NCBI GenBank assembly: GCA_033807695.1 | Contig: CM066311.1 | Coordinates: 434,001 to 498,000, forward strand | DNA: 64,000 bases | Direction: 5' to 3' | From: Daedaleopsis sinensis | Lineage: Eukaryota; Basidiomycota; Agaricomycetes; Polyporales; Polyporaceae | Shown here: one piece after another, positions 1 to 28,656 of the stretch | Numbering within the stretch: position 1 is the first letter of the stretch | Layout: each line of letters starts with the position of its first letter | Notes under the pieces: model-generated | What the model was told of the DNA's origin: nothing | The model's input: only the letters and a program-made list of their open reading frames with translations | Databases searched by the model: none | Translations under genes and position numbers: made by a program

Positions 1-843
1 CTTGTTATCGTCAACAAGCGGTATTCGGTGATTGACTTCTCGCCACGGAGGAAGTACTAGGGGGATGTCTCCGAGTAAATCGGATACCTCCTCTATCCAC
101 TTCTTCCGTATATGAGGCAGTTCTTCTTCTTTTAGCTGGGGCTGAGACAGTTGATTAACTATCTCATCCTCCATGGCGTCATTGATTCCGTACGGATCCT
201 CTCGTCCAAACCGATCCCTGCGAACGTTCTCGCTCGACTTCCGACTGACAGTATCGCGATACTTCAGCGGAGGCGTCGGGTTGCGAGAGTCCCGTGTCTT
301 GATACGTGGCTCCATCCGGGATAGTGTAGCGTGCTCACTGTCCGGGTATCGTATATGCACGATCCTCGGTTTAGTGGTATTCGCACTCGTATTTGAAGGC
401 TCAGCTTGGGTTGATCGGGGTTCAGAGGGAGACGGTGGTGAGTCCGTCTCCTGCTCTTTACCTGGTCGACCCTTTTGCGCCGACTTGTAGCGGTGCGTTG
501 TTTTTCTTGGTTTCTTTTTCATACGGGGTGAGGAAGGCTCCTTGTCTTCCTCATCCGTCGGCATGAATATGGAAGGATGATGTGGAGGAAGGTGAGGAAC
601 ATCTCGTTGTCGCTTGATGTCCTCATCTTCCTCTTCAACGATACTTACTTTGTTTTTCTTCTTAGTTTTACGGTCTGCCGATGCCTTCTTTTTCTCATAT
701 TTATCCTCCTCGTCCGAGGGGATAAATATTGACGGATGATCATGGCGTAACGTGGGTTTAGCACGTTGCGCTCGTAGGTCCTGATCTTCAACTTCCTCGA
801 CCGTGGTACTTCTTTTGGAAATACCACGGCGAGGGTGTGCGAG
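1..843 (-). CDS. Pol linker leading into reverse transcriptase (partial)
   Basis: Directly after the TGA at 844-846, and in the same frame, 281 codons are open to the window edge. The stretch is Lys/Glu/Asp-rich and contains an imperfect internal duplication (HPSIFIPSDEEDK and HPSIFMPTDEEDK). It ends with the conserved proline-rich motif that precedes reverse transcriptase in fungal gypsy elements. There is no initiation signal of its own near the TGA. It is therefore either expressed by stop-codon readthrough from Gag-protease, or the TGA is a mutation that disabled this copy. The catalytic domains are out of view. Confidence 0.7.
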
Positions 844-3800
844 TCAGGGACTTCTTTCACGCTTTCTGTTGCTTCGGTACTCCGAGTCCTGCTCATGGCT
901 GAAGGCGGGGATTATAGTGCCGTTCACTATAATGTTCCGCCTCTGCACATCGAGCACTACTCCATACTTTGCCATGAATGGTGTGCCAATGACGCAGTCG
1001 TATCGATCAAGGTTAACTTGGTCGAAGTATACGATATCGTCCACTGGCCCCAGCTTTACCGGTATTCTAGTGCCATAGCTGATCTTCGATCGGCTACCGG
1101 AGCATCCAAGTTGTAGAGTGACTTGTTGCTCCAGTATTATTTTTGGAGCACGGCATATATGTGCAAACTCCGGCGTGATCGAATCAGTCGTACTCCCTGT
1201 ATCAAACAGGGTGTACGCCATGATCCCGTTCACGTCGACTAGTGCGCACAACGTCGCCGTCTCTTTCGCGCTTCGGTTGGGTTGTACCATGAGCGGTGTG
1301 GTAGACCTACGCCGTACTGTTGCCGAATGCTCTCTCGGGGCCTGCGGGGGCGTGTGTGCCTTCATGGCATACACACGCTCCTTTGCACCGGGCTCCGTAC
1401 GCATTGCGCAAACACGGACGTATGGTTCTTCTGGCTCGGTTTCCGAGTCGCAATCAATGATTCGCATTGATTGCGCCCGTACTACTTCCGAGCTTGCATC
1501 GTCCTCTCCGTTTTCCTCCTCCTCTGGCTCGCCCTGTGAGCCATGATCACTCTCGTACTGGGATCCGCCCCATTGCTCGGGGCCGGGTCCCAGTTCGGAT
1601 TCCTCGCCGTCTTCTACTCGTTGCGAGTGGAAACGGGGTCGAGGACGGGCATTCGCGGGTCCCTGCGATGCTTTTGGGCATGACGGGTCACCGCGGAAAT
1701 GCCCCACTTGGCCACAGGCGAAACACGCGTTATCACGCGGTTTTGCTCCGGGGGTAGGAGGACGGTAAGGCGTCTTTGCAGTCGGTGTGCGCGAGCTCGA
1801 TTCGCGTGGTTCCTCGCGACGGCCGCGGTCGCGCGATTGCGATCGCGGTCGCTCGCGGGAGTGCCGATTGCGTCCCGTTTCGCGGTCTCGACGGTGCTGG
1901 CTTGTCTGGTTCGCGCTCGTCGTTGGGCGGACATATGTGGGTGCGTTGCGATGACCAATCGCGTCCGCGCCCGCATATGCCTCCTCGAGTTGACGAGCGT
2001 TCTCCACGATTGTATCCCAACGATTATACTCAGCAGTAATCCCTCGATTAATGCTGAGGTTACGTCGGATGTTATCAGGCAGCCCGTTGAATAGCTTCCG
2101 TTTCATTTCATATTCCGTTGGATGCTCGATCATCTCGCGCGCGCGGCGGCGTAAGTCCGCTGCATATCGCTCCACTCCATTCTGAGAGCGATATGCGCAC
2201 TTTATGAACTCCTCCGTCGCGCGGGCAGCCGTGCTCGAGTGCACGAACCTTGCGTGCAGGAGGCATACTGCCTCCTCGAACGATGGCGTGCGCGAGTTGT
2301 CGGGATGGTCTATCTCCTGAGCATACCAGTCGTCAGCATCTCCTTTCAGATGCTGGCGCAAGTATATCAGTCGATATCCGTCCGCGTCCGGACCGCATAC
2401 ATTGTATGCTCGCATCCAATCCAGTACTCCATCCAACCAAGTATAAAATACTTGGTGGTTGTTAGCACCATCATATTTAGATGGTACCTCAATCTTTGGA
2501 TGCTTCATCCCTTCCGGGATGACCAGTTTCTTGCCTACTTTGTGTCTGATGTTATTGACAAGCTGCTCCAAGAGCGCGTCGAGATGCGCTCTTGGATTCG
2601 CCGTAGGTGTGGTGTCCTCGCGCGGGGCAGTCGATTGGAGCACGCTCATCGGCTGTCCCGCCGTGTATATTGTGACATTGCCATACCTCGCAGCTCCTGG
2701 GCGGAGTGCATCCGAGATGGACCCCGCCGGCTGCCGCGAGTGGTCTGTCTCGCCGGAGGGGGCAACAAACCTGACATTATTTTGTTCCCCCCTATGCGCG
2801 TTCTCGCCGCGCGGCGCGTTAGGCGCGTCGCGCATTATACGTGCAGCGTCGTGCTGCTCGTTTAATATATCATTGTACGTGGGACGTAGATACGCATATC
2901 TATCTACGTTCGACTCATCAAACGCGGGCGGCGGGACTACTGAGCGCGACGATTCGTTCTCGGACGGTATCGATGCGTTCGCGGCATGGAGCACCTCGTC
3001 CACATTCGGCTGGATGGCCTGCCGGTTGCGACCTTGATGTCGTACGGCGCGCGTGATTCGCGCGTCGTATTCGTCAAGACTCTCGCCAGACTGTCGCGCG
3101 TGCGAGCTCGTAGACTCGGCTACCGCGTGCGACGCCGAGTCTTGCTCCGTATTGTTAGTTGGAGGGCCTGGCTTGAACTCCATGTTGCGGCGCTGGGCTA
3201 TCTCCGAAAGTGGAGGTAGCCCTAGTAGCAGTCGCGCCTCCGCGATGGTCTGCTCGACATCGCGGATCATGTTTTGGTTGTCCTGGAGTGCGCGATTGGT
3301 ACGGGCGTGTGCGGCTCGTACCTCATCGGCGTACTCCTGGATCACTACCGTGGAGCGGGCTTGAAGTTGATTTAACTCGTGGCCATGCTCGGTAAGCTGT
3401 TGGGTGCGCAGATACATTTGTTCACGCAAAGCTAACTGGCTTTGCGTGACAACTTCTGCCACCCGGTTCTGCCTTTCCTCGGTCGTCGCAGGGGAATGGG
3501 CGGGGCGTCGATCACTCGACGCTGCCGCCGCTTCCATCTGCGACGCACTGGCCGCGAACGCGGCCGGGGATATGGTTGGATTTGGTTGATGGATTTCGGG
3601 GGACTCACCGGGGGCGCCTCGGATCAGCGGGGTGGTCCGTCCTCCTCGGGGAGTCGGCGAAATCGTTGATGTTGAGTTGTCGCCCCGGCTCAGTTCCTGG
3701 TCCGGTACGTCTGTTACGTACGGGGCCCGGGGAGCTGTCGGGGCGGTGGCGAAGCTTCCGGCCGGAGTGCTTCGCGACGAGGGATTGGTCCTCGTCGTGG

Positions 3801-3858
3801 GATCCGCGTTTGGATTGCCGGCCTGGTGGGAATTCGAAGCGTCGCCTGAGAAAGACAT
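844..3858 (-). CDS. Gag-protease polyprotein of the gypsy element
   Basis: A 1004-codon frame from the ATG at 3858. The N-terminal 450 residues are Ser/Pro/Gln-rich and poorly structured. A retrotransposon Gag (capsid-like) region follows at about residues 460-560, including FYTWLDGVLDWM and GDADDWY. Next comes an Arg/Ser-rich basic tract and a zinc knuckle at about residue 712 (CFACGQVGHFRGDPSC, C-x2-C-x4-H-x6-C). A retropepsin-type aspartic protease has its active site at about residue 886 (LFDTGSTTDS). The product should assemble virus-like particles, bind element RNA and process itself. The frame stops at a TGA (844-846), but the same frame is open from 843 to 1, so this may be the Gag-protease part of a longer Gag-Pol product. 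Confidence 0.88.
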   Translation of the reverse strand: MSFSGDASNSHQAGNPNADPTTRTNPSSRSTPAGSFATAPTAPRAPYVTDVPDQELSRGDNSTSTISPTPRGGRTTPLIRGAPGESPEIHQPNPTISPAAFAASASQMEAAAASSDRRPAHSPATTEERQNRVAEVVTQSQLALREQMYLRTQQLTEHGHELNQLQARSTVVIQEYADEVRAAHARTNRALQDNQNMIRDVEQTIAEARLLLGLPPLSEIAQRRNMEFKPGPPTNNTEQDSASHAVAESTSSHARQSGESLDEYDARITRAVRHQGRNRQAIQPNVDEVLHAANASIPSENESSRSVVPPPAFDESNVDRYAYLRPTYNDILNEQHDAARIMRDAPNAPRGENAHRGEQNNVRFVAPSGETDHSRQPAGSISDALRPGAARYGNVTIYTAGQPMSVLQSTAPREDTTPTANPRAHLDALLEQLVNNIRHKVGKKLVIPEGMKHPKIEVPSKYDGANNHQVFYTWLDGVLDWMRAYNVCGPDADGYRLIYLRQHLKGDADDWYAQEIDHPDNSRTPSFEEAVCLLHARFVHSSTAARATEEFIKCAYRSQNGVERYAADLRRRAREMIEHPTEYEMKRKLFNGLPDNIRRNLSINRGITAEYNRWDTIVENARQLEEAYAGADAIGHRNAPTYVRPTTSANQTSQHRRDRETGRNRHSRERPRSQSRDRGRREEPRESSSRTPTAKTPYRPPTPGAKPRDNACFACGQVGHFRGDPSCPKASQGPANARPRPRFHSQRVEDGEESELGPGPEQWGGSQYESDHGSQGEPEEEENGEDDASSEVVRAQSMRIIDCDSETEPEEPYVRVCAMRTEPGAKERVYAMKAHTPPQAPREHSATVRRRSTTPLMVQPNRSAKETATLCALVDVNGIMAYTLFDTGSTTDSITPEFAHICRAPKIILEQQVTLQLGCSGSRSKISYGTRIPVKLGPVDDIVYFDQVNLDRYDCVIGTPFMAKYGVVLDVQRRNIIVNGTIIPAFSHEQDSEYRSNRKRERSP

Positions 3859-3895
3859 GTCGCCTAGAATTGAGTACGAGGCGAGTCAAAAAAGA

Positions 3896-4142
3896 TGTAA
3901 ATGCACAGAGTCTACTCCTCGCCCTAGTCGTGACTCGTCCAAGCCTGTATATTCAGGAGACGTGTACAACGGGGGGTGAAGAGAGAGTTGTCCTCTCTCT
4001 TCCCCTGATACGCGGATACACTACATGATAACTGTACAGTACTTCAGCCACAGTGATGATATAAGCGGTAGTCCATGGTTCGAGACGCCAGCACAGCCAC
4101 TAGGCGTTAATACCGGGGTATTAACGCCTCGCGGCCTTTACA
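3896..4142 (-). repeat. LTR of the gypsy element
   Basis: On the minus strand this 247-bp segment starts TGTAAAGG and ends GCATTTACA, giving matched TGTAAA/TTTACA termini, the normal form of a Ty3/gypsy LTR. Its outer end coincides with the exact boundary of the repeated transposon tip at 4143. A 12-bp-arm hairpin lies near the 5' end (4103-4128). The inner end is 37 bp from the Gag start codon. The partner LTR is outside the window, so the boundaries rest on termini and context only. Confidence 0.75.
4103..4128. repeat. Perfect hairpin in the LTR 5' end
   Basis: ggcgttaatacc and ggtattaacgcc are perfect 12-bp complementary arms separated by two G residues, about 15 bp inside the outer end of the LTR. 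Subterminal palindromes of this kind occur in LTRs, but I know of no assigned role here. Confidence 0.7.
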
Positions 4143-4383
4143 GACTTGCTGGACGGTCACGAGTACTTTGTTCTGATCCCTGTGGTGGAGCGGCCCGTTA
4201 GGGTGTCCCCCGACCCGTTCTTATAGTCATGTATTTCTGGAGACGCTTTTCCACGCATTATGAGTATTCGTGTCTGATGCATATCTCCCGTTATGTATAT
4301 ATCTCCGTCGGATCAATATATTTCGAAGTCAGCTGTCTGTACGAGAATTCGAAAAGGGGTCTATCGTTTTGAAAACAGCTGTA
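4143..4383 (+). mobile_element. Right end of a second copy of the cargo transposon, truncated by the LTR element
   Basis: Positions 4143-4381 match 28416-28654 with a single mismatch (T at 4369 against C at 28642). The shared stretch holds the last 84 bp of the GNAT acetyltransferase coding sequence including its TAG stop (4224-4226), its 3' untranslated region and the 50-bp terminal inverted repeat (4332-4381). Both copies end at CAGCTG followed by TA, and diverge two bases later. On the left the match stops abruptly at the LTR boundary. This is best explained as another insertion of the same element, later split by the gypsy element. Confidence 0.85.
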
Positions 4384-5121
4384 AGCGAAGGCGATCACGA
4401 GATCACTAGAGACTAGAGTTTCTGAAGACGTACAGGCATTGTACAGGCACGGTGGAAGGGCGCGACAGGAACGGGGGTGGACTTGGAGGACAGCGGCTAA
4501 CGAGTACCTGAGCTGGGAATGCCCGCAATCACCGGCACCGTTGTTCAATCCTCCTCGTCCAATCCGCACTACACGGTTACAGGTATGTACATAGCACGGT
4601 GTGCACCGTGCATAGCTGGGGCTCACGAGACCCGCACGCGCGTCGACGTGCCCCCGGACCAGCGCACTTACCTCCGACCACCTAGGAGCGCAGAGAACGT
4701 CGACATCGAACAATTGCAAGCCCAGAAGCAGAAGACGCACTACGCGGGTGATCCACACCCCGGTCGCGCGCGCACACGCATGTCTTGTTTTCTCGAATGC
4801 GGGAAGTTGATTATGTACATACAACAAGACGACACCGGACATAACAGCGCTACCACCGGGGCCGGCACTGGCTAAGTCGTAACCACGACGTAGGGACATA
4901 CGCGAGCGGGTCCGCGAGAGCGGCAGACAACACACACCCGCTGCGGACGGGGCCCAGCCCCGCCGTTCGACGTCCAACCCCCGAACTGTGCATATGCATG
5001 TAAGTATGTAGAAGAGAACATTCTCGCAGAACCGAACCGAGCGCAAGCGTACACGAGGCGGGGCGCGCCTGCGCCTGCGTCCTCCCCCTTTCCCGCCCCG
5101 CCCGTGCGGGTCGCCCGCGTC
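4384..5121. other. Intergenic, no gene supported
   Basis: Open frames here lack splice-consistent or family-recognisable structure. It is the 3' flank of the secreted-protein gene and the original insertion neighbourhood of the truncated transposon copy. Confidence 0.5.
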
Positions 5122-8112: not shown

Positions 8113-9636
8113 AGAAGCGTTGTAGGCTGTAGGCGACTAGAGTGATAAGATTGATTAGCGTGGATGATTGCGGGGGCGAGAATAAGACTGGCTGGCAGTA
8201 GTAGTAGCGATAGATCGTGTAAGAGCGCGACAGGCGCCCAATAAGTCGAACAACGGTCACGTGATCGTTCAGTCATTCTTGTGACGTCACATTGTCTCAG
8301 TCACACGCTGGCTAAGACTCAGTAACGGTTGGCGCATCGAACTTTTACTCAGCCCTTATTCTCATCCAGCGACCTCAAGACATAAGCGAGTGTGGCCTCC
8401 ACGTTCAGGGGAGAAATTGATAGTACTGTTCGGTCCAGTACCAGTGCGAGGCGATAAAACTCGGTGGGTTGTTCGTGTTTAGTAGTAGTACTTAATTAAC
8501 GTTTGCAACTTTGATGCACTCACCGGATTGCATCGCAAAAGTTGACCAAACCATCATCACGGGCTGTAGATGCCGTCACACTGGATGTACACTAGGTAAG
8601 TATTGCGCGGTGAGTACTATCGAATAGTATCAGACCTCGCGTTCGTTGATATTGGTGACTTTTTCGCTCATGGATTCGGTCTCGTATGTCGTCGTCATTG
8701 ACTAGGAAGAAACTCAGCTTACAGATGGATGCAGTAAGTACTCTGGTTGCTCAGCGGGCTAGTAAGACGGAATCGACCAGGGCTAGGTAGGTGAATACGG
8801 TCCCATTGCATCTCGACGAGATTATCTGTTGCGAGCCTTTTGACAATGCGAACTTGAACTTTAGGTGGGCGTCCTATACAGAGATGTTATCTGAACCTAA
8901 GTTGATGTGCATGTCGACGTCGACATGAGGATGGACATCCGCGTCAAGGCACCTTGGGCGAACGGCAGAGTTCGCAAGCGAGAAGTCGAATGGGTGCTTT
9001 CAATGTCCGACTGGTCACCATTCTGCTGCCCGCGCCCTGGAGTCGCCGCAATTGACATGGTATGTCGATTCTTGAGGGTCCGCATCTCGGGCCCTCTGCA
9101 GGCCCTACCCACAGAAAAACACTCGAGCATCTGAAGCAAGGTACGACTCACTAGATTCAACTCGTTCTCACTTGATCAACGATAGTAGATACAATAGGAA
9201 TAAGTGCGATAGGACAGCAGATGACACAGCACAGGACAAGCAAGGATGAGCGGAGGTGGGGATTTGAGTTATGGGGGGTTGAGGATGGAGATGAGAGGGA
9301 TATCGTTAGGTGAGTGGGGAGGGGTGAGGGCAGAGGGCAGAGGGGAAGGGAGGAACAACACAGCGAGGCAGGATAGCGAGAGACCAATAACTTATACGAC
9401 ATGAGAGTCCAATGCTACAGAATACCTACCTTGCAGTCCGTTGTTGGTATCGAAGTCCAAGGTGTGTATGGTTGCCAGGACCGTGGCAGCTATTTGTGGC
9501 CGCAATAACGTGCAGCGATGAGGTGCGGGCTCTTCGCTCTTCTCCGAGCAAGTCAAGTAGCCTCGTCTCAGCAGCGTCCCCAGAGCAGGCAGAGCTTGTG
9601 CCAATGTACTCGGGGACAGCGGGCAAGAAGCCACTC
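8113..9636. other. Intergenic, no firm gene; weak minus-strand candidate
   Basis: A minus-strand ATG at 9671 in strong context (CCAAAATGGCG) opens an 81-codon frame. A hydrophobic stretch lies at about 9200-9240 on the same strand. They might be exons of one gene overlapping the 3' end of the DUF6699-like gene, but I could not join them convincingly. The rest shows nothing recognisable. Confidence 0.3.
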
Positions 9637-10367
9637 TCATCTGAGACGGCAGTCGACGAACGCGACGCCATTTTGGACTGTTCTCAGAGTGCAGCCGGAG
9701 AACGTGTTCCTCACGTGCAGCAGGTCACCCTTGGTGGTCTCTGCGGTGATAGAGTGCGGGTTGACGAGCCCGAGCTGGACCGCATTCGCGATCTCGGCGG
9801 GGCTCGCGCGCACCCTCAGCGCATGCACGAGCTGCGCGACGACGTCCAAGACCGTCGGCGCAGGGCCTTTGGTCGGGACGATCTCGACCACGAGGGCGTT
9901 GGGGCCGAGGTTGAGTTGCAGACGGTTCGCGGGGTGGTTGACCGCGGGGCAGCCCGCGGCCGTGCCGCTGATGTGGGTGCCTTGGCGAACGTCGAAGATG
10001 AGCGGCCCCGGCCCGTAGGCATCGAGCGTCGGGTGGAAGTCGAGCGTGCGGCTGCGGCCGTGGTGCGCGGGCCTTTCCGGGCTGTCCGGCGGGGTCATCA
10101 GGCCATCTGCGTGCGGTCGCCCATGATCAGCATGACGTCCGGATGTGTGACACAATAACACGAAATGAATCGAGAATGTATCGCCGAGATGTAACACATA
10201 CAGTGCTGGAGAGGGACGGCGTGCCCGGCGTGGTACGGCGACAAGGGCGGGCTCGGGGTGTGTGGGGACGGAGGGAGGCCCCGGGCTCCCATACGGGGAG
10301 CATTTGTCGCCTTCGACGGGGCGTCGTACCGCTGGTTGTAGCCCGATTTCGGCGTGTCCAAGTACAT
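9637..10367 (-). CDS. DUF6699-like protein, two exons
   Basis: Model: 10367-10202 and 10106-9637, 211 residues, joined at CACT/GTATGT and CGCACGCAG/AT. The N-terminal half is Pro/Ser-rich (MYLDTPKSGYNQRYDAP). The C-terminal half has the layout I associate with DUF6699: an initial LDFHPTLDAYGPGPLIFDVR strand, then PAVNHPANRLQLNLG, then a helical segment starting TVLDVVAQLVHALR. The function of that family is unknown; it is widespread and multicopy in mushroom-forming fungi. A longer 5' end is possible, because an upstream minus-strand frame (10718-10386) lies just below a TATA-like sequence at 10717-10722. A 41-bp alternative 3' intron was considered too short. Confidence 0.6.
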
Positions 10368-22818: not shown

Positions 22819-22820
22819 TA

Positions 22821-22870
22821 CAGCTGTTTTCAAAACGATAGACCCCTTTTCGAATTCTCGTACAGACAGC
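22821..22870 (+). repeat. Left terminal inverted repeat of the cargo transposon
   Basis: Starts CAGCTGTTTTCAAAACGATA immediately after TA (22819-22820). It is the reverse complement of 28605-28654 with one difference (A at 22835 against the partner) and identical to the reverse complement of 4332-4381. Confidence 0.9.
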
Positions 22871-22974
22871 GCCACCGGTGACTTGAAACTCCGATGATTA
22901 TGTAATTGTTTTCTTTTCCGGACAGTTCTGTCCAGCAGGCGCCTCGTACTCGTACCACCATCATCGACTCCAAC

Positions 22975-25188
22975 ATGCGCCGCCACATCATCTCCAAGGA
23001 GCTGAAGGAGCTCGCCTTGGGCCTCTCCCTACATCACCGAATGCCCGACAAAGCAATAAAGTCTATCACTGGTATCAGCATACGCACCCTGAAGCGGCTA
23101 CGTCGAATGTATAGGCAGACGGGAGATGTGGTGAGGATTCCTGTCATCGACGGTAGACCTCATCAGCAAAAAGTCGGTTGCATTGTCTTGAATCGAGTGC
23201 ATTACGATCTCCGCTCCAAACTGCAAGTGCTTGCAATGCATTCAATCCATTATATTGCATTACAATGCATTACAATCCAAAGACCGATTACAATCCCGTG
23301 TGTTCGGATAAGCTTGGTATTCACAGTCATTCTAATGCTTTTCAATGCACATCAAGCAATGACGACGCTGATGGCGTCACTTCTGAGAAGCAACCTTCTA
23401 TTATTTCGCTCCACAGCTGTCAGCCTTCTATATAAGGCCGTCCTCTCGCTCGACTCTTGTCACCAAAGCCCCCCCACTTGCTGCCGCTGTCTCCTCTCCT
23501 GCATATGCCTCGCTCCACCGCTCAGTGTCATCTCGGTAAAGACCTGCTCTTGACAGACCTGACCCTAACCCGACATTCTCGTGCCCCTCTCGACGCTCGC
23601 GTGCCCCTCTCGTACTGTTCTCTCACGCTCTCTCTTGTGCTCTCTCACGCTGTTCTCTCGTGCTCCTCTCGTGGCCTCTCACTCTTGCGCTGTTCTCTTG
23701 TGCTCCTAGGCTTGTGCACTGTTCTCACGCTACTGTTGCTGCTCTCGCACTACTGTCTGTGGTTTGCCCTATCTCGCACTTTTGCGCCTTATCTAGTGCC
23801 GCTATGCTGTCTTGGCCTTTATCGTGTTATGTACCGTATTGTTATCTACAATATATTTGCGTTTATTTTGCTAGTACTATCAGTGGGAATTTCAATCATT
23901 CAGGCGCACTGTTATAAGATTCTTTTCGGTTAAATGAATTACTACAGAAATGTTTACAAGCCCATGTAATCCCTCCAATACATTGTAATGCTCACAATAC
24001 CCCCAATGCGCTACAAGCGCTTGACTGCATTACAATGCATTATAATGCGACAGGTGGTGAAAGTTGTGCATTGGAATGCGCGTTGATACCCTATCATGCC
24101 TTGCAATTGGAGCCTCCGGATTGAGTGAAATATATGCATTGTAAGTACTTGTAGGGCCTCTCAATTCCCACACATTTTTGCTGATGCTCGGGCTCTGGAT
24201 GGACTGGATGCACGGGTGAGTGCTTTCTCAGAGTCAGAATACCAGCTCACTCATTTTTTACAGTTCCTTGAAGGTTGTATCGAACGACAACCGGACGCAA
24301 TGCTGGCAGAGCTCCAAACACTGCTGCTCGAGATCTGCAATGTTCAAGCTTCTTTACCGACCATCGAGAGGACATTGAAGCAACGAGGATTCACACGCAA
24401 AATGGTATGTACTACTCCACAACACTTCTCAAACTGTCTTATCCATCACATCTTCAAGATCACCCGTCCCGCATTGGAGAGAAACGAGGAGAGGAGGGCG
24501 GCCTTCAAGCTCCACGTGGGCGAGCAATACTCGCCCGAGCAACTCGTCTTTGTCGACGAGAGTCACCTCAACCGCATGTCACTCCGTCGCCGTTGGGGCT
24601 GGGCTCCAACAGGTATCCGGGCGCGTCGTCGGGAGTTCTTCGTCCGTGGAACCAGGTGTGTCGACACATGTTACGCTGACTTGTACGCATCTAATCCCCG
24701 TATATTCAGATACTCAATTCTCCCTGCACTTTCTCTCGACGGTGTGCTCCATCTCACTGCGCAAGACCGGGCCTTCAACGGCGAAGACTTCCTCGAGTTC
24801 ATCGACGGCCTGCTTGATCAAATGTGTCCGTGGCCGCAGCCCAACTCGGTTGTTGTGATGGACAACGCCTCCATCCATCACGTTCCGGGTGTTCGTGAGA
24901 TGATTGAACAGCGGTACGTCGTTCTTCTTCGATAACTGTGTTTGATACTGACCACACTGCAGTGGCATGCGCCTGCTCTACCTGCCGCCCTACTCTCCTG
25001 ACCTCAACCCTATTGAAGAAGCGTTCTCATCTCTCAAGCATTGGCTTCGCGCGAATCGCGACTACGTTCTCTGTGAACTCGAAGGCATCTCTTGTGATCC
25101 ATATCACCTTATATGGGAAGGGACTTATGCTACGCTGACACCGGAGTCAGTGTACGGATGGTTTAGGCATAGCGAGTATATTGCGTAG
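22975..25188 (+). pseudogene. DDE_3 (IS630/Tc1-mariner type) transposase split by an insertion
   Basis: Catalyses cut-and-paste transposition. Coding blocks: 22975-23160, 24189-24215, 24264 onward with further short introns, ending at a stop at 25186-25188. The N-terminus is a helix-turn-helix DNA-binding region (ALGLSLHHRMPDKAIKSITG, ISIRTLKRLRRMYRQTGDVV). The linker GRP-RALDGLDARFLEGCIERQ is interrupted at its proline by the 1,026-bp element at 23161-24186. The catalytic domain keeps LVFVDESHLNR (first D), SVVVMDNASIHH (second D) and PYSPDLNPIEEAF (final E). Apart from the insertion every exon is open and GT-AG introns are intact, so the disabling event looks recent. It may remain mobilisable in trans. 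Confidence 0.88.
23161..24186. mobile_element. Nested 1,026-bp non-autonomous element with 12-bp inverted repeats
   Basis: The segment begins CATCAGCAAAAA (23161-23172) and ends TTTTTGCTGATG (24175-24186), a perfect 12-bp inverted pair. It is flanked by CT on both sides (23159-23160, 24187-24188). Removing the element plus one CT restores GRPRALDG in the transposase linker. Inside are near-identical direct repeats of TGCATTACAATGCATTACAAT at 23256-23276 and 24026-24046, a TATA-like sequence (tatataagg, about 23430) and a CT-rich tract. The open frame at 23457-23933 is low-complexity and not credible as a gene. The superfamily is unassigned: the 2-bp duplication does not fit hAT (8 bp) and the dinucleotide is not TA. 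Confidence 0.78.
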
Positions 25189-25451
25189 GTTTGATGTTGA
25201 TCTCAACGTAGCGCATCGTGAACGCTGTATGTTGTGTGATGACGTTTACCATGTATTGAAGAATACCATAGCTTGCACAATCCTCAGTCAAAGTTGAAGT
25301 GTTTCCCAATGATGATGATTACTATGCCCTAACGTACTACAATGCGAGGCAGGGGGTGATTGCGGTATGCTACAACAAGAAATTGCCCAAGAAAGTCTGA
25401 ACGATGCGGCTATGGCTACAGCAAGAAAGATGGGACTCATCAACTAGTAGG

Positions 25452-25476
25452 TCAGTCTTCAAGTTCGTCAACCTCG

Positions 25477-25518
<42 letters not shown>

Positions 25519-27291
25519 CCATCCTCGTCCTCGTCCTCGACCACGTCCTCGTCCTCCTCCTGATGATCGTCGTCCGGGTTGTTGTTCACATCTCCAAGAG
25601 CGTGGTTCCATTGGGGCACTTCGGCAGCAGGGAGTGGCCCAGGCTCCACGTGCGCCTGCCGCACTGGACGCTGCATGCCCAAGACTGGGGCCACCCCGTA
25701 TCCAGCGTACATGTGCAGATAATGCGCACGTTCAGCTCCAATACCACCTATCTGACTTAGGCAGTCCTGCGGCAGCAGAAGGAGCTTGCATGCATCGTCG
25801 ATCCCCATGTTGAGGAGGCTCTGCTGAACGTCTCGGAAGCGATGTTGCGGCATGTCGACATCAAGGAGTGCGAGAACGAGGGAGATGTGGGGGTAGGCGA
25901 CCTGTCCTGGGGTGGACTTGGGTGGCCGCGTGAGATCTTGAACGGCTGCAAGGCGACACTCATCAAGATCTTGTGATTCCGTGCGCGCGCTAAGAGATGC
26001 GCTGGAAGACGGCTTGATCGGTGTGGCCTCGCGAGTGATGCTCGAGAGAGGGGTACTGGCAGTCGAAGTCACCGAAGACTCGATTGTGTTGATCGTAACG
26101 TGCACTTGCGGAGGGGGCTTGGAGTTGCGAGGCCGTTTCGCTGGACCACGGTCGAAGTTCATGCAATGCGGAGGATCGTATATGGTCGCTTCCCCCAGGG
26201 ACTGTACATAATATCAGAGTGATGATCCCGTGTACATATCAAACTGCGTACTCACGATCTTCTTGGCCCACAGCGTCATCTCGCCATGGCTAAGACGACG
26301 ATGGTTGTCTTGACCGCCCTGCCGCGACACAAAGCAGTGGCCTTGGTGAGCCTCGCATCGGATAGCGGGCTCGAGACGCTTGTACGCCTTGAGCTGGGAA
26401 TCGGACTCGGGGTCGTCAGCTCCGGGGGTGTCCAGTAAGTCGTCGTCTTCGCGTGCCCGCTTCTTCCCGTTGCCCTTGCCCTTCTTGGGTGCCGGAGCCT
26501 TTGTCTAAGTATGAGCACAACGTGAGTGCGTATACGTACACGACGGTCGCAACACGTCAAACTTACCGCGTTCTTGACGTCTATACTGACTGTCTTAGTA
26601 CGTGCGTGATCCGCCTTGTCGCACACCCGGTTCATAGCAGTCGCAAAATCATCCGCGTTCGTCAAGTTTATGCCCTTCCCCGCTTCGCCGCTAATTTTGT
26701 ATACAAGTTTGATAGGTCTAGGCGACCCGTCGAGGTACGCCTTGACACGGTCGTAAAAATCATCCCACGGCATGTCGGTCTCGCCGATAAATTCACGCTT
26801 CTCGTCGCCTGTGTCTACCACGACGGGGAAGCGGAACACTGAAGAATAATATGTGAGTAAATGCGACTATGTTCAAGTATAGACTTACCTCCTGGGCGTG
26901 GTTCAGCATTGGGGCGAGGTTTGGCAGCCTTCGCACCTCGCTTGCGGGCCGCTGCGTTTTGCAGTGGCGGCACTTCCGGGGGTTGAGGCTAAGGCTGGGG
27001 TGGAGCCGGAGCTGGAGCCGGAGGCTGAGGCTGCCAGTGAGGCTGGTAGTACGGCCCGGGTTGCTGCCAAGCCTGAGGAGCAGCGCCTGGATGCGGATAG
27101 AACGGAGGAGGAGGGTAAGGATAGTACGCGCCGGGTGGGTACGCAGGAAGTTGTTGAAGTGCAAGCTGATTGGGAGGCGGCGGGCCATCGTATCATGATT
27201 GTGCGAGTTGATTAGGTGGCGGTGGCAGCGGCGGGCCATGGTGTTATTGAAGGGCCAGTTGGTTGGGAGGCGGCGGCGGGATGTCGGGCAT
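25452..27291 (-). pseudogene. Pro/Gln-rich nuclear-type protein of the transposon, with three nonsense codons
   Basis: Exons: 27291-26889, 26838-26567, 26504-26256, 26201-25452; all introns GT-AG and in phase, total 558 codons. The N-terminus is a Pro/Gln/Tyr-rich tract with repeats of PPPPNQLALQ. A globular middle follows (VFRFPVVVDTGDEKREFIGE, WDDFYDRVKAYLDG). Then come basic patches (KKGKGNGKKRARE, PAKRPRNSK) that look like nuclear localisation signals, a SAM-like helical segment (PQDCLSQIGGIGAERAHYLH), and a long Asp/Glu tail encoded by a GTCCTC repeat. In-frame TAA (27244-27246), TGA (27193-27195) and TAG (26989-26991) break the first exon, each one C-to-T change from Gln, Arg and Gln. 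It resembles an uncharacterised multicopy basidiomycete family. Initiation downstream of the stops is possible. Confidence 0.72.
25480..25560 (+). repeat. Simple repeat (GTCCTC)n encoding an acidic tail
   Basis: A hexanucleotide-type GTCCTC/GTC run on the plus strand, read on the minus strand as alternating Asp/Glu codons at the C-terminus of the Pro/Gln-rich protein. Confidence 0.8.
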
Positions 27292-27511
27292 GGCGCGCTC
27301 TCATCTGCTGCCCCGGTTTGGCCCCGGTGTGCCAGTGGTATCTATAAGTAATGGCCCTCATTATCAGCCGATATGGCACGACTTTGGATATTTTTGAAGC
27401 GAGCTTCTAGCTTGTTCCATGTGATCCCTCCGTCGGGCGTCCGAAGGTGCTATATCTATGGCGCGAACGTGCTCAGCCTATCCACTACACTTCTTCATCT
27501 TCAACTTCAAC
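27292..27511. promoter_or_regulatory. Divergent promoter region inside the transposon
   Basis: The 220 bp between the start codons of the Pro/Gln-rich gene (leftward) and the acetyltransferase gene (rightward). The layout implies a shared divergent promoter. No specific operator is evident. Confidence 0.4.
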
Positions 27512-28499
27512 ATGGCGACCACACCTCCCAACACCAACACGATCACCCCTCCCACCTCCGTCCTTCCTCCCCCCCAGGCTCCCACCAAGAACAATCTGAC
27601 GTTTCAAACTATCGAAGGCCAAATGATCACTGAGGTACACTTGGCCCAGTGCGCCGAGCTATTCAGCGCGCACTATGGTATCTGGGGACAGCAAGCTGCT
27701 CCCCCTCTCAAGGCTGGTGAGTCTCTTTTTTTCGTTTCGTCGTTCGCTTCACTAGACTCAAGTACTCCTAGGAAATCGGGTCAAGATGACCTCCAGGAAG
27801 TTGAGGCAGCAGTGCCTGGGTCAACCTTACGAAACGATTCTCGCCATGGCTTGGGAGGATAACAGATTCATCGGCCATGCGTTCGCTACGAAGTGGAAGT
27901 ACGGGGACGGTAAGTCGTGTGTCATTCTATCACTCATGCTCTCTCTCATCATATTCGTAGGGTATGTTGGATGGATCACGCAGCTCGTCGTCGATTCGCA
28001 TTGTCGCAGGCAGGGAATTGCGTCCATGCTGCTCCGCCGCCTCACCAAGACGGATTGGAGCGAGGGTGTCAACTTCATGGGCCTTGTGTCCTCCCACCCT
28101 GGGGCGTGCAACGCGTTGTGCAACGTCTATTGTGCGTGCATAATGCATCTTGCGTGTGGTGAGACTGTACTAACCCACTATGTAGATATCCGTCCTGAAG
28201 ACATCGATACGACAATCATCAGCACGCATGCCGCCGCTGTCGTCGCTTGTACGAACGTGGACTACTTGAAGAACCTTCAGTTCCGTGGTTCTCTCTTCGA
28301 GCAGAACCCGCCGCCCGAGACAGTCTCACAGGTTTTTACATCGTTCTGGGTCGATCATTCCGAGCCTCTCCTCGCTCTTGGGATTTGCAAGCAGCGCAGG
28401 GAGTGGGTGCTGGGGGACTTGCTGGACGGTCACGAGTACTTTGTTCTGATCCCTGTGGTGGAGCGGCCCGTTAGGGTGTCCCCCGACCCGTTCTTATAG
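27512..28499 (+). CDS. GNAT-family N-acetyltransferase carried by the transposon
   Basis: Model: 27512-27716, 27772-27909, 27961-28131, 28186-28499, 275 residues, all junctions GT-AG and in phase. After a Pro/Thr-rich leader, the GNAT fold is visible: AELFSAHYGIWG, ETILAMAWEDNRFIGHAFAT, then motif A with the acetyl-CoA loop (WITQLVVDSHCRRQGIASML, R-R-Q-G-I-A), then SSHPGACNAL. The C-terminal half includes YLKNLQFRGSLFEQ, VFTSFWVDHSEPL and LDGHEYFVLIPV, a pattern I associate with a multicopy basidiomycete acetyltransferase family. The substrate is unknown. It lies inside the inverted repeats of the transposon, and its 3' end is duplicated at 4143-4226, so it is probably cargo or an accessory factor. 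Confidence 0.85.
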
Positions 28500-28604
28500 T
28501 CATGTATTTCTGGAGACGCTTTTCCACGCATTATGAGTATTCGTGTCTGATGCATATCTCCCGTTATGTATATATCTCCGTCGGATCAATATATTTCGAA
28601 GTCA

Positions 28605-28654
28605 GCTGTCTGTACGAGAATTCGAAAAGGGGTCTATCGTTCTGAAAACAGCTG
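28605..28654 (-). repeat. Right terminal inverted repeat of the cargo transposon
   Basis: Ends in CAGCTG followed by TA (28655-28656). It lies 105 bp after the acetyltransferase stop codon. It carries a C at 28642 where the other two copies have T. Confidence 0.9.
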
Positions 28655-28656
28655 TA

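Follow-up and report, generated by a model that had tools for sequence, protein, structure and literature searches.

A mobile three-gene Tc1/mariner-like element of Daedaleopsis sinensis encoding a transposase, a Pro/Gln-rich protein and a GNAT acetyltransferase

A three-gene element and its transposase

A 64,000-nucleotide stretch of the Daedaleopsis sinensis genome (GenBank assembly GCA_033807695.1, contig CM066311.1, positions 434,001 to 498,000; hereafter the window) contains, at positions 22819-28656, a compact unit that an earlier note on this DNA had described as a candidate Tc1/mariner-like transposon with three genes. The unit is flanked by TA dinucleotides (22819-22820 and 28655-28656), both read from the sequence as target-site duplications, and is bounded by terminal inverted repeats (TIRs) at 22821-22870 (plus strand, tip CAGCTGTTTT) and 28605-28654 (minus strand) that pair at 49 of 50 positions. 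Enclosed between them are a DDE_3 transposase gene (22975-25188, plus strand; a gene model built by eye and checked), the gene of a Pro/Gln-rich protein, hereafter PQ (25452-27291, minus strand), and the gene of a 275-aa GNAT acetyltransferase (27512-28499, plus strand). The PQ and GNAT genes are divergent, with 220 bp between them. Coding sequence begins 154 bp inside the left tip, with the transposase ATG (22975), and ends 155 bp short of the right tip, with the GNAT stop (28499), so that the coordinates bear out both the repeat structure and the narrow margins reported earlier. The 7.5-kb region and its own reverse complement had 36 20-mers in common, and any such 20-mer arose in 2 of 200 mononucleotide shuffles, by our own estimate about the level of chance palindromes.

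The transposase comprises 325 aa, encoded with four introns of 48-54 bp. Pfam analysis of the intact protein from the copy on contig C2 (see below) returned DDE_3 above its cut-off (E 3e-31), and the catalytic residues D150, D234 and E269, with 34 residues separating the last two, form a DD34E triad. N-terminal helix-turn-helix profiles matched below their Pfam cut-offs (HTH_33, 4.1e-4; HTH_23, 0.061). The top-scoring relative among the best 120 of 6,840 matches (7,999 candidates scored) was a Tc1-like transposase of Trametes pubescens at 68% identity. As judged from its sequence, the protein is a DDE_3, DD34E Tc1-like enzyme. Together with TA on both sides of all four genomic copies, the TIRs and a TA duplication that, for one of the four copies, is evident from exact empty sites at two paralogous places, this places the element in the Tc1/mariner-like class originally proposed. 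The single-gene plan usual in that class is not obligatory, and the present unit has three genes. Starship elements carry a tyrosine-recombinase captain and are not known to have TIRs; an assignment to them was ruled out by the DDE_3 transposase and the TIRs.

Genomic copies and insertion sites

The search for repeat-bounded copies that the earlier note had proposed covered the parent genome (51.6 Mb, 24 contigs), with a DNA search that scores the best candidates only. Four copies with the same three genes were found, at C12:456819-462656 (the window copy), C11:2382844-2387637, C2:847927-852720 and C12:423324-438383; given this scoring, further copies may exist. All four lie at different places and read T-TA/CAGCTG...CAGCTG/TA-A, where the slash marks the edge of the element. 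With inserts set aside, any two copies align over 4,779-4,794 sites, with 24-28 mismatches and 0-38 gap columns. The C2 and C11 copies, free of inserts, measure 4,794 bp including both TAs, and their transposase, PQ and GNAT frames are all open. The other two are each interrupted in one gene by an insert: the window copy is broken, its transposase being split and its PQ frame meeting a stop after 15 codons, and the GNAT gene is split in C12:423324-438383.

The C2 copy sits within a repeat of ~690 bp, two further copies of which, on C4 and C10, lack the element. Both of these empty sites carry GCACCTTAATCCC. Because the empty repeats have a single TA and the filled site has two, the insertion was exact and duplicated the TA. 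No empty site matching both sides of the junction was recovered for the C11 copy, and the corresponding search with the right flank of the window copy matched nothing but the repeat itself. Since four copies have the same TA-flanked ends and one of them has an exact empty site, the three genes are moved together, as first suggested from the window alone; that the three-gene element is a mobile unit is close to certain. Four young copies and an exact empty site also point to a workable system.

The earlier note had named independent miniature inverted-repeat transposable elements (MITEs) as a competing explanation of the repeat pair. This was ruled out, because in the best-candidate DNA search the exact 50-bp repeat and tip of the three-gene family were found solely at the eight ends of the four copies, though related tips of short elements exist. 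Related 21-bp tips occur at 62 genome sites, 22 of them without mismatch, against three for a reversed-pattern control. A number of these form facing pairs 200-300 bp apart, with CAGCTGTT..CGATAG-like tips, and these short elements are likely non-autonomous relatives. Three further places with short DNA matches lacked a strong inverted repeat, and protein comparison there gave nothing significant (best E 0.16).

Two inserts were resolved within the copies. In the window copy, 1,026 bp at 23161-24186, without counterpart in the other three copies, have short inverted tips (CATCAGCAAAAA) with CT on either side; one more match, at 96%, lies at C6:574191-575190. The insert in the other C12 copy spans 10,276 bp (C12:427867-438142), has identical 247-bp ends and a 5-bp duplication (GACTT), and is likely a young long terminal repeat retrotransposon. 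Window positions 1-4142 are part of it; the 3′ end of the interrupted element copy follows at 4143-4383 on the plus strand, its GNAT gene being cut by this insert, which ends at ~4142.

An old partner gene and a late acetyltransferase

In the three copies whose PQ frame is open, the protein is 551-553 aa long, and the introns of the gene in the window copy lie at 26202-26255, 26505-26566 and 26839-26888. Beyond the parent genome, a search of 4,332 candidates gave 14 homologues within the E 0.001 limit, all from Agaricomycete genera. Within the parent genome, 12 diverged transposase loci were located besides the four copies; ten were fetched (C1:4538811 and C6:3642251 being left out), and a clear enclosing inverted repeat was found at eight of these, with no strong one at the remaining two (L013 and L017). 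In an 18.4-kb element (C2:1586733-1605102, hereafter C2big), whose interior also has frames resembling other mobile elements, a PQ homologue lies antisense to the transposase inside the repeats (hidden Markov model search, 2.1e-33; 3,855 open reading frames searched). The same arrangement was found in L012 (C2:218688-222694), with PQ homologues at 2.6e-9 and 2.4e-8 in the same search. For L014, on C9, the direct match to the PQ profile was weak (0.023), and the link runs through L012 at 1.8e-9 and 4.9e-7 (among 78 open reading frames); hhalign probabilities were 95.6% and 93.3% for the L012 frames and 5.2% and 4.5% for the L014 frames, with 0.9% for the best of 78 shuffled frames. By these profile matches, a PQ-type gene has been kept by three older element lineages of the genome, one of them (L014) linked indirectly. 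Because homologues of PQ are encoded on the strand opposite to related transposases in these three lineages, PQ is not random cargo, and by sequence comparison it is an old partner gene of the transposase.

For a PQ homologue, fold prediction suggested two domains, a PB1-like one for assembly and a helical one resembling RAD51-N/SAM. On the strength of this predicted fold and the gene order, PQ is probably a cofactor of the transposase.

The older relatives differ in other respects. L015 (7820-9082, minus strand) and L016 (1979-2872, plus strand) have a different second gene, common to both (3.3e-14), which has no clear sequence match to PQ (a piece of the L015 gene reached E 0.41); in L018 no match to a second gene was found. 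A two-gene layout may be common among DDE_3 elements of this group. Moreover, the tips of the older relatives are flanked by 2-bp direct repeats other than TA: CA for L012 (4688-8694), TC for C2big and, read by eye, perhaps TT for L014 (3158-6443). By eye, these targets are partly palindromic, and the lineage may be less strictly bound to TA targets.

The GNAT protein matched Acetyltransf_1 at 2.1e-9 (38.1 bits against a cut-off of 20.7). The acetyl-CoA loop motif of GNAT enzymes is Q/RxxGxG/A, and the loop of the transposon protein reads RRQGIA; profile and loop thus place it in the GNAT superfamily, with a predicted activity. At the loop position that is usually G, 21 of 46 aligned relatives have G and 20 have Y; the transposon GNAT has G and its C2 paralogue, described below, has Y. 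The introns lie at 27717-27771, 27910-27960 and 28132-28185, and an extra in-frame ATG occurs at 27458.

Among 438 candidates, 86 homologues passed, from Agaricomycetes, ascomycetes, bdelloid rotifers and metagenomes. The search of the parent genome gave a single other GNAT place, at C2:1093725-1094692 (of which C2:1093725-1094668 is 8725-9668 of the fetched locus), where no family tip was found in the surrounding 19 kb, and this paralogue looks like a host gene. Its three intron positions are identical to those of the transposon GNAT, all in phase 1 (by eye), which suggests that the transposon gene was likely captured from a host gene. The earlier note had also considered that the acetyltransferase might belong to a fixed host position; for the window unit this was ruled out, the paralogue lying elsewhere on C2. 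GNAT was not found in any of the eight diverged TIR-bounded elements, and in L012 there is no room for it at the position it takes in the window family, because the likely 5′ frame of PQ, identified there by inspection, is only ~0.34 kb away from the right repeat. Of the earlier suggestion that homologues of both accessory genes might adjoin DDE_3 transposases elsewhere, the part concerning PQ stood within this genome, and the part concerning GNAT did not. Found only in the young family, GNAT is, on this distribution, a late arrival in the element.

Phylogenetic trees grouped the transposon GNAT with two Daedaleopsis nitida proteins (support 100/99 in a 58-row tree and 100/100 in a 28-row tree), pairing it with one Daedaleopsis nitida GNAT at 100/99 and 100/98. 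The latter protein (69% identical) and a 73%-identical PQ homologue each lie on a contig of 3,508,359 bases. Because these contigs are of equal size, the three-gene unit probably also exists in Daedaleopsis nitida, and the association of GNAT with PQ appears to have outlived the species split. A second neighborhood was seen in Cytidiella melzeri: on a contig of 24,691 bp, the locus tag of a GNAT directly adjoins that of a PQ homologue. In the PQ tree, Cytidiella is placed close to the window family on a long branch, at a modest support of 86/87. The approximately unbiased (AU) test, made on 28 rows picked from the 86 homologues plus two own-genome proteins, rejected the Cytidiella GNAT as part of the window GNAT lineage (p 0.0007) and did not reject a group uniting the own-genome paralogue with the transposon GNAT and both Daedaleopsis proteins (p 0.16), values that presume a group named before the tree, the first tree having already been viewed. 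Since the Cytidiella GNAT belongs to another branch, its position beside PQ would reflect either a second recruitment or coincidence.

Possible roles and comparison with known systems

On balance we lean toward a three-part arrangement in which the transposase likely mobilizes all three genes together by cut-and-paste into TA sites, PQ would bridge the element, and a likely captured GNAT would open its chromatin. PQ would polymerize via the PB1-like domain, use the RAD51-N/SAM-like helical domain, together with a conserved Cys/His stretch, to contact DNA, and assemble on element DNA as the transposase cofactor, as its predicted fold and gene order suggest. GNAT, likely host-captured, would keep element chromatin open. 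That it thereby counters silencing, by analogy with the role proposed for the TET/JBP genes of other fungal DNA transposons, is the least supported step and is offered tentatively. Still more speculative is a wider generalization, in which mushroom-type fungi would harbor a two-part Tc1/mariner class, DDE_3 with a polymerizing PB1/RAD51-N-like cofactor, some members repeatedly recruiting a host acetyltransferase for anti-silencing; a hint of repeated recruitment comes from Cytidiella melzeri, in which the GNAT that neighbors the cofactor homologue by locus tag is of a different branch.

Two observations weigh against a function of GNAT in the element. Older relatives managed without it, and selection on it is not demonstrable because the copies differ by too few changes: between C2 and C11, the counts of synonymous and nonsynonymous changes are 2 and 0 (transposase), 6 and 6 (PQ) and 1 and 2 (GNAT), and the window GNAT differs from C11 by 2 and 1 and from C2 by 1 and 1. 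GNAT might be a passenger, a host gene trapped between the PQ gene and the right end to no benefit of the element. Its confinement to the young family (none of eight diverged TIR-bounded elements), the intron positions common to the C2 paralogue and the absence of a sign of selection among copies agree with this possible but rather unlikely origin. However, the frame is open in three of four copies and is cut in the fourth by the insert with identical 247-bp ends, and the equal-size Daedaleopsis nitida contigs suggest an association that outlasted speciation. It is decidedly unlikely that GNAT is host-benefit cargo, for example for small-molecule detoxification, with the element as vehicle, given that a paralogue is already present in the genome and that the search yielded just four copies, of which two are broken. 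Modification by GNAT of the element's own transposase or PQ, tuning assembly or activity, is less likely again: N-terminal acetyltransferases are the top fold matches, near-tied with others, and the divergent GNAT and PQ genes are close neighbors, but older relatives lack GNAT.

The proposed three-part arrangement bears on how such transposons operate. Tc1/mariner is the textbook one-protein transposon, and a conserved second protein with the predicted folds would mean that some members use a cofactor; a captured acetyltransferase would, if true, add a new class to the few transposon-borne chromatin enzymes of fungi. The element resembles Tc1/mariner in its DD34E DDE_3 enzyme, inverted repeats starting CAG and TA duplication, and differs in having three genes rather than the usual one; another locus of the same genome, L019, is TA-ended and, at 1,623 bp, has the size of a one-gene element. 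Among the titles and abstract starts listed from a collection of CC-licensed papers in PubMed Central (PMC), none concerned a fungal Tc1/mariner element with an acetyltransferase.

VANDAL elements are Mutator-type, and their VANC protein is not known to be an acetyltransferase. They offer a parallel in that a non-transposase protein encoded by a transposon counters silencing; they differ as elements of Arabidopsis. Closer in class are the ciliate TBE and Tec elements, described in the relevant section of PMC7325037 as Tc1/mariner-type DD34E elements with three open reading frames, one Tec frame lying in the complement and TBE encoding a zinc-finger protein. That source describes them from ciliates only, its section on these elements makes no mention of an acetyltransferase, and Tec differs further in having a site-specific recombinase and TIRs of ~700 bp. 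Closer in host are Kyakuja, Zisupton and Plavaka, fungal DNA transposons that, according to the main text of PMC12730594, carry TET/JBP genes, likewise captured chromatin-type enzymes for which an escape from silencing has been proposed. They belong to other transposase superfamilies and act through DNA oxidation rather than acetylation, and the words mariner, GNAT and acetyltransferase are absent from that main text. Three-ORF Tc1/mariner elements are already known from ciliates, and fungal DNA transposons with chromatin-type enzymes are likewise on record for TET/JBP; what appears new here is the gene set.
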